A stretch of 64,000 bases of DNA. Origin: an endosymbiont of Galathealinum brachiosum (lineage in GTDB: Bacteria; Pseudomonadota; Gammaproteobacteria; SZUA-229). Location of the stretch: positions 434,001 to 498,000 of the forward strand of contig QFXC01000013.1 in assembly GCA_003349885.1 (NCBI GenBank), in the 5' to 3' direction. This document shows, in pieces, positions 30,484-40,805 of this stretch. Below the pieces are notes generated by a model, which saw only the letters and a program-made list of their open reading frames with translations, made no database searches and was not told the DNA's origin. How positions within the stretch are numbered: the first letter of the stretch is position 1; every line of letters starts with the position of its first letter. A program made the position numbers and the translations under genes.

Positions 30484-31497
30484 ATGACAATACGCATCGG
30501 CATCAATGGCCTTGGCCGCATGGGTCTACTGGGTTTTCGCGCAGGCTGGGATAATCCCGCCTATGAAATTATCCATGTAAATGAAATATCTGCAGATAGT
30601 GCAACACTTGCCCATTTACTGGAGTTTGATTCTGTACATGGACGCTGGGGGCGTGAACCCTCATCCGACGCTTCAGGTATTTTGCTTGAAGGAAAAAGAG
30701 TCAGTTGTTCATGTGAAAAAAATCCCGCTAATATTGACTGGGTTGGCATGGGTATAGATCTGGTTATTGAATGCACGGGGCAGTTTAAAACCGAAGCCGA
30801 TCTACAATGTTATTTTGATCAGGGAGTAAAAAAAGTACTCGTTTCTGCACCTGTTCCGAACCCGGCGATTAACATTGTGTACGGCATAAACCACCATGAA
30901 TATCAACCTGAAAAACATCACATTGTTACTGCTGCTTCCTGCACAACAAACTGTTTAGCGCCTGTTGTAAAAATAATGAATGATAACATTGGTATTAAAC
31001 ATGGTTGCATGACAACAATACATGACATAACCAATACTCAGACCATTGTTGATAAAGGCCATAAAGATTTGCGTCGTGCTCGCGCATGTAGCAATTCATT
31101 AATTCCAACCTCAACCGGTTCTGCAAAAGCTATCACTAAAATTTTTCCTGAACTGGAAGGAAAATTAAATGGACATGCAGTTCGCGTTCCACTGCTTAAT
31201 GCCTCGCTAACCGATTTTGTTTTTGAAGCAAAACGAAAAACCAGCATCGAAGAAATTAACTCTTTATTTAAACAGGCTGCTGAAAATAAACTGCAAGGCA
31301 TACTGGGTTATGAAGAACGTCCACTGGTATCAATAGATTACGTCAACGACCCACATTCATCGATTATTGATGCACTTTCCACCATGGTAATAAATGATAC
31401 ACAGGTAAAAATTTATGCCTGGTATGACAATGAATGGGGTTACGTTAACCGCATGATGGAGCTGGCTGCATTTATTGCAAAAGATTTAAATGACTAA
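30484..31497 (+). CDS. ArsJ-associated glyceraldehyde-3-phosphate dehydrogenase
   Basis: A 337-residue GAPDH with the Rossmann motif [18 protein letters not shown] and the catalytic Cys153 in TAASCTTNC. Paralogues placed next to arsJ use arsenate in place of phosphate and make 1-arseno-3-phosphoglycerate, which ArsJ exports. The gene is between arsR and arsJ and overlaps arsJ by eight bases, so the resistance role is a confident inference from context. A separate glycolytic gapA would be expected elsewhere. Confidence 0.93.
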
Positions 31498-32716
31498 CGG
31501 TTTAAAAAATTATTTATTAATCACTGCAGGCTACTGGGCATTTACCGTAACAGACGGTGCCATTCGTATGCTAGTTGTATTGTATTTTCACCTGCTTGGT
31601 TACTCACCATTTGAAGTAGCCATGTTATTTATATTTTATGAATTTTTTGGCATTGTCACCAATTTAATAGGTGGCTGGTTAGGCTCTCGCATTGGACTGA
31701 ATATGACAATGCATATAGGCATGGCCTTACAGGTTTTTGCACTCGCCTCTTTAATGGCTCCTGAGACCTGGTTAAGCATCAGTTATGTAATGGTTGCTCA
31801 GGCATTATCAGGCATTGCAAAAGATCTGAATAAAATGTCAGCAAAAGCCAGTGTAAAAATCTTATTACCTGAGGACGAAAACAGTGAATCCAGATTATTT
31901 AAATGGATTGCTGTGCTTACCGGTTCAAAAAACACACTCAAAGGCGTTGGTTTTTTTCTGGGTGCATTATTATTACAGCTATTTGAATTCAGGGGTGCAC
32001 TGGCTATTTTATCAGGCAGCCTCTTCATTGTTTTAATCACTTCAATAATAATGCTACCCGCTGGACTGGGAAAAACTAAAAACAAAACAAAATTCACCCA
32101 GTTATTTTCAAAAACACCCGCCATAAACTGGTTGTCTGCAGCACGATATTTTCTATTTGGTTCCCGTGATGTCTGGTTTGTCGTAGCATTACCGGTATAT
32201 CTTTATTCAGTATTCGAATGGAGCTTTATGCAGGTCGGTGGTTTTCTTGCGCTCTGGATTATTGGTTATGGCATGGTGCAGGCGAGCGCACCAAAACTTA
32301 TTCGTTCAACACACAAAAATGAATCACCAGATGGCGCAACTGCAAAACACTGGGCTTTTATTCTATTTTTTATTCCAGCCATTATTGCACTTGCCCTGTC
32401 ATCGGGTTATCACCCTAAACCTGTTCTAATTATTGGCCTGATTGTATTTGGTATTATCTTTGCCATAAATTCTGCCGTACATTCATATCTAATCATTAGC
32501 TGGTCAGAGCACGACAATGTATCTACCAATGTAGGTTTTTATTATATGGCGAATGCAGCCGGCCGTTTAATGGGGACTATATTATCAGGATGGATTTATC
32601 AAACTCAAGGGTTATCGGGCTGTTTATGGTGGTCGAGTGGATTTATATTAATGGCAACCTTACTATCATCTCGTTTACCTGTACAAAAAATCACTACAAA
32701 AAACATTATGAACTAA
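31490..32716 (+). CDS. arsJ: ArsJ, organoarsenical efflux permease (MFS)
   Basis: A 408-residue major facilitator protein with about twelve membrane segments, starting [27 protein letters not shown], characteristic of ArsJ. It expels 1-arseno-3-phosphoglycerate; the compound then breaks down to arsenate outside. It is translationally coupled to the GAPDH gene. Its end overlaps the convergent greB gene by 11 bases, so there is no spacer for a terminator between them. Confidence 0.92.
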
Positions 32717-33239: not shown

Positions 33240-33350
33240 TGTTGCCACAGAGACACAGAGTGCACAGATAAAATCCTTTTATTGTTATTAAGCGCGTATC
33301 GCTTAATAACAATAAAACTCTGTGACTCTGTGACTCTGTGACTCTGTGGT
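33240..33350. repeat. Nested palindromic element with 8-bp tandem repeats
   Basis: The centre is a perfect 15-bp inverted repeat with a 5-base loop: tattgttattaagcg (33280-33294) and cgcttaataacaata (33300-33314). Outside it, ccacagagacacagagt (33245-33261) faces four exact tandem copies of actctgtg (33317-33348). The outer parts are therefore inverted copies of a ctctgtg motif. It lies between phoH and greB on the minus strand. A related ctctgtgg/gtgtctctg stretch occurs at 34738-34760. It resembles a small non-coding mobile element. Confidence 0.65.
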
Positions 33351-33379
33351 AAAAAAACAAAAGGGCGCAAAATGCGCCC
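33351..33379 (-). terminator. Rho-independent terminator of phoH
   Basis: On the minus strand, gggcgca-ttt-tgcgccc (33363-33379) forms a 7-bp GC-rich stem and is followed at once by TTTTGTTTTTTT (33362-33351). It begins about 40 bases after the phoH stop. A textbook intrinsic terminator. Confidence 0.85.
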
Positions 33380-33418
33380 CGTAAGTATATTACAAATTAT
33401 TATTATAATTCGGTTTAG

Positions 33419-34171
33419 TTATTTCTCATAACATTCAATTATATCTTTAACCAGCCCGCTTCGAACAATGTCTTCATGCTCAAAAGCATGAACATAAACA
33501 GAGTTAAGATGCCCCAGCCTGTTTATTGCATCTTGCAAACCAGATTGATTACCGATATCCGACTGACGAATATCCCCATTTACAACAACGCGACAGTTTT
33601 CACCAATCCGAGTTAAAAACAACTTTAACTGTGCCCTGGTACAGTTTTGCGCTTCATCTAAAACAACAAACGCATCGTTAAATGTTTTACCCCGCAAATA
33701 AGCCATTGGCGCAACGACAATACGATCATTTTTCAAACCGCATTCAACCGCTCCCTTACCTAATCGTTCGATCAGACAATCACGAAATGCATCAAAATAA
33801 GGATCAAACTTTTCCTGCAAATCACCCGGTAAAAAGCCCATATTTTCACCCGCCTCAACTGCTGGTCGGGTAATAATTATTTTCTCTATACGTCGAGCCT
33901 CCAACTCTTCTGCGGCAATTGCACCCGCCACATAACTTTTCCCGGTTCCCGCAGGACCCGTTCCGAAAGTTAATTTATGGGATTTTATTGCCGTGATATA
34001 TTGACCTTGAGACAAGGTTTTTGCCTGAAGCGGCGGCGCAGCTCGTGCTGTTATAGTTTGCGTTTCAATAAAGGAGTTGCGTGATTTAATATCAACAACA
34101 ACCGATGGATCTGAGTTACGTTTTCTTGCTTGTTTCGCAGCTCTTTTCTGTGAAGCAGAACGTCTTGGCAT
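33419..34171 (-). CDS. phoH: PhoH family ATPase
   Basis: A 250-residue single-domain PhoH protein. The basic N-terminal tail is RRSASQKRAAKQARKR; the P-loop GPAGTGKS is at residues 72-79, Walker B AFVVLDEAQN and sensor-like NGDIRQSD follow. PhoH proteins are RNA-binding ATPases related to SF1 helicases, with roles in RNA metabolism. The start at 34171 has AAGGTG 6 bases upstream; an in-frame stop precedes it. The gene has its own promoter, a leader of about 110 bases and its own terminator. Confidence 0.92.
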   Translation of the reverse strand: MPRRSASQKRAAKQARKRNSDPSVVVDIKSRNSFIETQTITARAAPPLQAKTLSQGQYITAIKSHKLTFGTGPAGTGKSYVAGAIAAEELEARRIEKIIITRPAVEAGENMGFLPGDLQEKFDPYFDAFRDCLIERLGKGAVECGLKNDRIVVAPMAYLRGKTFNDAFVVLDEAQNCTRAQLKLFLTRIGENCRVVVNGDIRQSDIGNQSGLQDAINRLGHLNSVYVHAFEHEDIVRSGLVKDIIECYEK

Positions 34172-34248
34172 ATGGCACCTTTTGATAATTAATTAAACAA
34201 TGCAAATCAGCAGTACTGTTTGTCAGGGTCTTCTTATCAAGTTTGCGA

Positions 34249-34261
34249 GATCACCTCCTTA
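34249..34261 (-). promoter_or_regulatory. Perfect 16S-tail complement in the phoH leader
   Basis: The minus strand reads TAAGGAGGTGATC, the exact complement of the last 13 bases of 16S rRNA (GATCACCTCCTTA on the plus strand). It lies 78-90 bases before the phoH ATG and some 20 bases after the predicted transcript start. No ATG, GTG or TTG stands at a working distance: the nearest is a TTG 13 bases after GGAGG opening a five-codon frame. phoH has its own AAGGTG. It may be a ribosome standby or decoy site. Confidence 0.6.
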
Positions 34262-34287
34262 GTCTTTTTACATTTTTGTTAACTAAT

Positions 34288-34316
34288 TTTATAGAGGATT
34301 GAATATGACAGGTCAA
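34288..34316 (-). promoter_or_regulatory. Sigma-70 promoter of phoH
   Basis: On the minus strand TTGACC (34316-34311) and TATAAA (34293-34288) are separated by exactly 17 bases. Predicted start of transcription is near 34281, giving a leader of about 110 bases before phoH. Confidence 0.7.
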
Positions 34317-34356
34317 GAAAAAAACGAATAAAAACAATAATTAAGGGAAAACATCA

Positions 34357-34569
34357 CAAAATAAAATATATTTCTTTACTTCGTTTTTTTGTAGTGTTAT
34401 TTTGGGGATTCGCTGTCAGTAAAATCATCTTTTTTTACCTCGGTTATCTTTCTTTTCCTTTCAACCTATTAGTTAATTAAACAGCTCAAAATAAAATAAA
34501 TTCCTTTACTTCATTTTTTTGTAATGTTATTTTGAAGATTCGGCGTCAATAAAATCTTCTTTTTTACGC
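34357..34569. repeat. Two degenerate direct repeats, 130-bp period
   Basis: Copy 1 (34357-34438) and copy 2 (34487-34569) share about 85% of bases by eye over about 82 bases, including ctttacttc-ttttttgta-tgttatttt, gattcg-c and gtca-taaaatc. Each has caaaataa at its start and ttattttg 40 bases later, which could pair. A shorter fragment (caaaataaacttcgtt) follows near 34613. They lie upstream of phoH, beyond its promoter. No coding frame spans them. Confidence 0.6.
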
Positions 34570-34815
34570 CCACCTTAATTCTTGAAATTCATCACTTAAT
34601 ATTCTAAAAATTCAAAATAAACTTCGTTAATAAACTTGATGCAAAGATGATATTTAATTGAATTCACAATACTTATTTAATCTAATCCTGATTAAAATAC
34701 ATTAACTATGAATTATTTTTTTAAAGTGAATAGACTTTGCTCTGTGGCTCCGTGTCTCTGCATCATTTTTTAAAACACGCAGCGACACCACCACACATGA
34801 AAGATAACTAATGTT

Positions 34816-40055: not shown

Positions 40056-40805
40056 TCAGACTAACTTACGAATACGATATCTGAGCTTACTGGTTTTAAG
40101 GTTCGGGTTTAATTTCGGTGTTTTAACTAAATTTTTTCTCAATACCGCACTACTGATAAGAGATTTTGAATAAACACCCACAAAATTTTCATTCAGACAA
40201 CTGGTCAACTGAAATATAGATGCAAATTTATTACTAATCGCTTTATTATTGATACCTGCTGAGTCCAGCAACTCTTCTTTACTTACAAAATTTCTAACAA
40301 TGACGCCATTTTTATTTAAATGTTTCAACAAATGAGAAAACCACTTCCCATTGGCTTCTACAACCGAAACAGGCTCTCCATCTTTTTCCGAAAACAGATC
40401 ATCAACAATCATATCAAATTTTTCACCCTGGTAATTTTCAAGCCAGGTAATTGCATCTGCTTCTATTAAATTTATTGTTTTATGCTTTAAATTAAAAAAT
40501 CGTCGGGCGACTGATAAATGAACTGGATTAAGCTCTACTCCGGTTATACTTTCAGGTGAAACAAAATAACGCAACATATGAAGTGAGGCACCACCTCCCA
40601 CACCTAGCACCAATACACGCTTAATTGTATTTTCAGGATAAAAAAATGCCGGGATCATTAATAAATCCCAAACATGTCCTGTTAGTATCTGTTCAGGATT
40701 ATACTGACTATGAAACACGCCATCAGTATACAATCGCATGCTTTTTCCTGCAGAACGGACTTCATACTGAACACCAGAAACACATTTATGCCACACTAAT
40801 GCCAT
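40056..40805 (-). CDS. Spermidine synthase-like SAM-dependent methyltransferase fold protein
   Basis: 249 residues. The nucleotide-binding motif VLVLGVGGGASLHMLRYF, then ITGVELNPVHLSVARRFF, a DA-motif IEADAITWL and FDMIVDDLFSE follow the spermidine synthase order. The catalytic Asp of true aminopropyltransferases is replaced by the DDLFSE context, and the N-terminal beta domain is short, so polyamine synthesis is not assured. A basic C-terminal tail (KTSKLRYRIRKLV) is unusual. Many such stand-alone proteins have unknown substrates. Confidence 0.72.
   Translation of the reverse strand: MALVWHKCVSGVQYEVRSAGKSMRLYTDGVFHSQYNPEQILTGHVWDLLMIPAFFYPENTIKRVLVLGVGGGASLHMLRYFVSPESITGVELNPVHLSVARRFFNLKHKTINLIEADAITWLENYQGEKFDMIVDDLFSEKDGEPVSVVEANGKWFSHLLKHLNKNGVIVRNFVSKEELLDSAGINNKAISNKFASIFQLTSCLNENFVGVYSKSLISSAVLRKNLVKTPKLNPNLKTSKLRYRIRKLV

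Follow-up and report, generated by a model that had tools for sequence, protein, structure and literature searches.

The phoH locus

We analysed a 64-kb stretch of DNA (hereafter the window) that carries, on its minus strand, a phoH gene with an unusual leader. The features of this leader and its gene are as follows.

34311-34316, minus strand: -35 hexamer TTGACC of the phoH promoter, read directly
34288-34293, minus strand: -10 hexamer TATAAA, read directly; spacer of 17 nt
34281, minus strand: predicted transcription start, placed 7 nt past the -10 hexamer from the promoter
34248-34260, minus strand: start-less extended Shine-Dalgarno (SD) element AAGGAGGTGATCT, complementary to the organism's own 16S tail and conserved in 8 of 10 close orthologues
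34176-34183, minus strand: phoH's own, weaker SD, AAAAGGTG, -8.0 kcal/mol
33419-34171, minus strand: phoH coding sequence, 250 aa, Pfam PhoH at 249.6 bits

The best NCBIfam model for the gene is the E. coli-type PhoH (PRK10536), with a score under the equivalog cut-off, and a second PhoH-domain gene is located elsewhere in the genome (C7). PhoH probably handles RNA.

The surroundings of the gene contain several repeats. Upstream of the phoH promoter, positions 34349-34435 and 34479-34565 form an 87-nt direct repeat that is 86% identical and has a 130-nt period. The repeat block (GCGAATCCCCAAAATAACACTAC...GAAGTAAAG) is conserved upstream of the promoter in g1 relatives and occurs in a diverged form in other genera. 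It is possibly the site of an unknown regulator, duplicated in this genome. Short CACAGAGT-type repeats flank the phoH unit at 33317-33348 and 34739-34754 and are probably members of an interspersed repeat family. At 30484-32716, the window encodes the ArsJ transporter and its partner glyceraldehyde-3-phosphate dehydrogenase, an organoarsenical export pair in which both proteins score over the NCBIfam cut-offs.

A 16S tail complement in the phoH leader

Positions 34261-34249 of the minus strand read TAAGGAGGTGATC. The first-pass annotation had described this site as a perfect complement to 13 consecutive bases of the anti-SD tail, a description that holds for the tail as textbooks give it for E. 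coli (...CCUCCUUA). However, the 16S rRNA of the organism itself ends in ...GGGGCTGGATCACCTCCTTTAAAG (that of a second species is identical up to CCTCCTT), so the true match is AAGGAGGTGATC at 34260-34249 (minus strand), with 12 Watson-Crick pairs and one G-U pair to the organism's own 16S 3' end rather than 13 Watson-Crick pairs.

We ranked all 17-mers on both strands of the window by their pairing with the single-stranded 16S tail. Helix 45 was excluded because its G-rich bases gave spurious top matches. The best 17-mer is the phoH-leader site at -21.9 kcal/mol (z -7.4 for pairing with the own 16S), and the runner-up is a gene-linked SD at 40600 (minus strand) at -19.4 kcal/mol. The site does rank first, as annotated, but to call it much stronger than any gene-linked site is a slight overstatement. 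When the window was scanned with up to two mismatches allowed, no second place matched TAAGGAGGTGATC. Across the 3.77-Mb genome, AAGGAGGTGATC has exactly two copies, one at the 16S 3' end and the other in the phoH leader. Such a single match in a genome of this size is by itself not significant; its significance comes from its position and its conservation.

Position between the promoter and phoH

The promoter TTGACC-N17-TATAAA, read directly at 34316-34288, is the one that had been proposed earlier, and the form TTGAC-N18-TATAA is common to all ten of the close orthologues compared in this study. A consensus promoter scanner omitted it because TATAAA lacks the final T that the scanner requires. 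Given this conserved upstream promoter, it is unlikely that transcription starts downstream of the site.

In the window, TAAGGAGGTGATC begins 27 positions past the last A of TATAAA, and the phoH ATG follows 77 nt after the site. The site therefore lies 78-90 nt from the first base of that ATG (34171), the distance given in the first-pass annotation. GGAGG stands at about +24 from the predicted start and 87 nt before phoH. Across the ten leaders, GGAGG follows TATAA by 24-33 nt (approximately +18 to +27 from the predicted start) and precedes the phoH ATG by 74-173 nt. A site that works with the phoH start codon should keep its distance to phoH; judged by these spacings, the element keeps its distance to the promoter instead. 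Because it is the distance to the 5' end that is kept and not the distance to phoH, the spacing indicates a role at the 5' end of the message, similar to that of a STAB-SD (a stabilising SD of the Bacillus type).

The element is not followed by a usable start codon. No ATG, GTG or TTG occurs 3-12 nt downstream of it in any of the 10 leaders, and the earlier statement that a normal start codon is missing at working distance can be extended from the window to all of them.

Conservation among close orthologues

Whole-genome searches provided ten close phoH orthologues, including that of the window, with 73-100% identity and from the genera g1, g3, g5 and g6. All element-bearing orthologues belong to one bacterial family, and five of the ten leaders come from one genus. 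GGAGGTGRTY is kept at the same place in eight of the ten, spanning all four genera. Conservation in close relatives, which had been proposed as a check on the site, is thus borne out, with core variants that still form G-U pairs. In these eight leaders, the element forms 12-14 bp with the 16S tail at -19 to -23 kcal/mol, an energy that is reached by 0-1 of 1000 dinucleotide shuffles, as against -6.5 to -14 kcal/mol for phoH's own SD across the leaders. A chance match was ruled out as an explanation of the site by its conservation and by these shuffles. The two remaining leaders depart from the pattern to different degrees. That of G025 carries GGGGGTGAAA, in which the element is weaker and partly kept (z -3.1, 7/1000 shuffles), and that of G018 carries GGAGATGTGT, in which it is degraded and the pairing lost (z -1.4, 95/1000 shuffles). 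Judging from these two sequences, the element is not indispensable.

The leader around the element diverges while the element stays. In an alignment of seven leaders with a mean identity of 48%, the longest invariant run is GGAGGTG (permutation P 0.0003). Within the 11-nt core, only three positions vary among the eight leaders. All three face a 16S U or G, and the changes are A to G or C to T, each of which keeps a G-U pair. By our own count, the probability that variation would be confined to such G-U-tolerant positions under random placement is approximately 0.02, which is supportive of pairing with the 16S tail, not decisive. Pairing runs into helix 45 in a minority of leaders: those of G004, G002 and G001 go four pairs into the helix, with 17 contiguous pairs in G004 and G002. 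In most other leaders, the extension meets a mismatch or a bulged base.

Occurrence beyond the close orthologues

The following genome-wide statements are based on pattern searches. In the organism's own genome, the other matches to GGAGGTGRTY fall in coding sequence or rRNA, except for one in unassigned sequence. Only phoH has GGAGGTGRT within 18-30 nt of TATAA, and this genome yielded no further GGAGGTGRT that is near a promoter and lacks a start codon. Further matches in the relatives are ordinary gene SDs, coding sequence, or, for one match in G004, a site (L141) that is covered by no reading frame and lacks the conserved promoter.

The more distant family orthologues that we examined have weaker sites or none. 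In the sister genus g11, which belongs to the same family, a weaker GAGGT-like site occurs at a similar distance after the promoter. At the position that the start-less SD occupies in the window's clade, some leaders of genus g13 have instead a short inverted repeat (GTTGAATA...TATTCAAC, with variants). This substitution is suggestive, given that stem-loops at the 5' end are a classical means of stabilising an mRNA, although the fold of the whole leader is not significant in all of these cases. In three g13 phoH leaders (L016, L021 and L025), the repeat lies near the predicted 5' end and shows pair-preserving changes (GTTGAATA/TATTCAAC, GTTGGATA/TATCCAAC).

No comparable site was seen, by duplex energy and by eye, in the phoH leader of E. 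coli K-12 or in five other gammaproteobacterial leaders (L033-L036 and L113). One of these, from Gammaproteobacteria UBA5109 (L035), has a PhoB-box-like TTGTCACTTTATTGTCACTT shortly before a AACAGGAGGCC sequence, approximately 100 nt before the phoH ATG; no PhoB-like box was seen before the window's phoH. A phoH of the window type (E<=1e-65) is carried by 4 of 369 genomes across the class, three of them in the same family. A contig scan of genomes recovered mostly other PhoH paralogues and no further close phoH leaders.

A proposed role at the 5' end of the phoH mRNA

The sequences themselves provide the match to the own 16S, the missing start codon, the conservation, the fixed promoter distance, the variable phoH distance, and a genome with RppH and RNase E and without detectable RNase J. 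From these we infer a transcription start, 30S binding with its footprint, stabilisation, regulation, and a link to ribosome supply. We propose that the conserved start-less SD provides a docking place for a 30S subunit at the 5' end of the phoH message, where the subunit would shield the mRNA from RppH and RNase E, so that PhoH output would follow ribosome supply. The element, approximately 18-27 nt from the predicted 5' end, would base-pair with the whole single-stranded 16S 3' tail and hold a 30S subunit there. Going by general 30S footprint sizes, about 50 nt at the start of the mRNA would lie under the docked subunit, with the phoH ribosome-binding site still accessible. The 5' end would then be shielded from RppH and from 5'-end-dependent cleavage by RNase E and, with less certainty, the leader would be kept from folding back onto the weak phoH ribosome-binding site. 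PhoH output would be expected to rise with ribosome supply.

RNase E, RNase G and RppH all score over cut-off, and no RNase J does so in a genome that is 99.5% complete. Start-less SDs are reported to stabilise the ompA, ermC and cry3A mRNAs (PMC7509114; PMC4113751), and in E. coli poor ribosome binding favours 5'-end-dependent decay (PMC3997798). We nevertheless hold the 30S docking explanation with no more than medium confidence, mainly because stable binding of a ribosome at the 5' end is reported to have left downstream lacZ unprotected from RNase E in E. coli (PMC3997798). In organisms with RNase E, such binding may thus give little protection farther along the message. A second point against the explanation is that a constant spacing from the promoter would also remain after the loss of a leader gene. 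The first-pass annotation had listed a ribosome standby site, a decoy sensing free 30S subunits, and leader-peptide control as possible roles. Docking of a 30S, as standby or in a related form, fits the comparative data, and leader-peptide control does not, since neither a start codon nor a reading frame is conserved after the site.

The closest rival is that the docked 30S mainly holds the leader open and hands ribosomes to the weak phoH site, with effects on stability being secondary. The opening cost of the phoH binding site is computed at 3.6-11 kcal/mol across the leaders. In nine of ten leaders, blocking a 30S footprint (32 nt downstream) in the folding model makes opening cheaper by 0.8-4.9 kcal/mol, an effect that is mostly above that in shuffled leaders (for example, 1/150 shuffles as good in G000 and 0/150 in G006). 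Two segments of the window leader are predicted to pair.

34234-34240, minus strand: TTGATAA, within the expected 30S footprint; predicted to pair with TTATCAA with probabilities of 0.75-0.98; not conserved in all relatives
34182-34188, minus strand: TTATCAA, predicted to pair with the segment at 34234-34240; overlaps the phoH SD at its edge

In G009 and G006, a GCCAUA or GUCAUA beside the element pairs instead with the phoH start region UAUGGC. However, the pairing partners differ among species without a consensus structure, the window leader folds no better than its shuffles (z +0.95), and with a shorter footprint the effect is weak or absent in several leaders. Moreover, with half of the leaders from one genus the cases are not independent, and the distance to phoH is as great as 173 nt. 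We therefore consider it rather unlikely that unmasking is the main function, and we retain it as a rival or an addition to 30S docking at the 5' end, not as a result. Alternatively, the leader could be a sensor of free 30S subunits or mature 16S 3' ends: by titrating free tails, it would tie the synthesis of PhoH, a relative of the YbeY partner YbeZ, to the state of 30S maturation. Pairing that spans the entire single-stranded tail, and reaches into helix 45 in G004, G002 and G001, goes beyond the need of ordinary initiation, and the PhoH-like protein YbeZ interacts with the 16S 3'-end maturation factor YbeY (PMC5101352). This link to 16S maturation through YbeZ and YbeY is speculative. The gene belongs to the PhoH type found in E. 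coli and is not ybeZ, the other PhoH-domain gene lies elsewhere, and in leaders other than those three the extension into helix 45 is mismatched or bulged. We judge a pure sensor to be very improbable. A combined form, in which the start-less full-tail complement captures free 30S, protects the message and frees the phoH site, with PhoH, as an RNA-handling ATPase, produced in step with the amount of free or mature 30S, seems to us doubtful, if less so.

Conservation alone cannot identify the binder, and the motif might serve an RNA-binding protein such as CsrA/RsmA, or be a DNA operator just past the transcription start. It contains AGGA, a CsrA-like sequence. Yet what is conserved is the stretch complementary to the 16S tail, with a core that tolerates only those A to G and C to T changes with which a G-U pair survives. 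The motif is not palindromic, and no conserved hairpin presents the GGA; another binder is thus quite improbable. A structured riboswitch or attenuator was rejected, given that no Rfam family matched the window at the gathering score, that there is no consensus fold, and that a scan of 33350-34800 revealed no terminator between the element and phoH. The most improbable reading, in our view, is an upstream ORF in which the strong SD drives a short peptide coupled to phoH. A TTG 13 nt after GGAGG does open a 5-codon ORF in the window, and some g11 relatives have an ATG or GTG near their weaker site. But this TTG is absent in the nine relatives, stop codons (TAG, TAA) occupy the spot in L004, L005 and L006, and neither start codon, frame nor peptide is conserved after the element, for which reason we ruled out a leader peptide.

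Comparison with known systems

The best-documented start-less SDs that park ribosomes at the 5' end of an mRNA are those of Bacillus, which act as a block to RNase J. The nearest parallel to the phoH element is the STAB-SD of Bacillus thuringiensis cry3A (PMC4113751). Both are strongly complementary to their own 16S and lack a start codon, and the phoH element is placed, in the ten leaders, at approximately +18 to +27 relative to the predicted start. The STAB-SD blocks 5'-3' decay by RNase J1 (PMC4113751), whereas no protein in the genome that carries the phoH element scores over cut-off as RNase J, and RNase E, RNase G and RppH are present. The phoH element also differs in pairing with the whole tail (12-14 bp) and in preceding phoH in a gammaproteobacterium. 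Because the blocking of RNase J1 has no counterpart here and stabilisation is something that we infer, we liken the element to a STAB-SD and do not class it as one.

We also compared the element with systems in which the decay machinery or the mode of ribosome binding is similar. Ribosome-dependent protection in E. coli (ompA without a start codon and the lacZ SD study; PMC7509114) shares with our proposal that ribosomes, bound without or separately from translation of the main gene, protect the message in a bacterium that uses RNase E. Further cases, as cited in PMC3997798, are those of Richards 2012 and Lodato 2012. In the E. coli cases, the SD belongs to a gene or a mini-ORF, whereas the phoH element is a separate upstream SD without a start codon. 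The standby site of E. coli tisB (PMC7708055) is comparable in that binding of the 30S would take place far upstream of a site that is partly closed. It differs in relying on single-stranded RNA and structure near the 5' end rather than on an SD, and its main site is sequestered, whereas structure in the phoH leader is weak. The extended SD of Staphylococcus aureus (PMC13009471) likewise pairs with the 16S 3' end beyond the core, but its additional pairs lie towards the start codon and guide the choice of start; no start codon follows the phoH element. A literature search that combined phoH, leader and Shine-Dalgarno returned nothing relevant.

If our explanation is correct, the same device as in Bacillus arose or survived under different decay machinery, with RppH and RNase E and no detectable RNase J, and the phoH leader would be a natural case in which to see cleanly whether an mRNA 5' end can be guarded by a 30S subunit on its own. 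The phoH case suggests that other leaders should be searched for unannotated start-less SDs, which are overlooked by gene finders.
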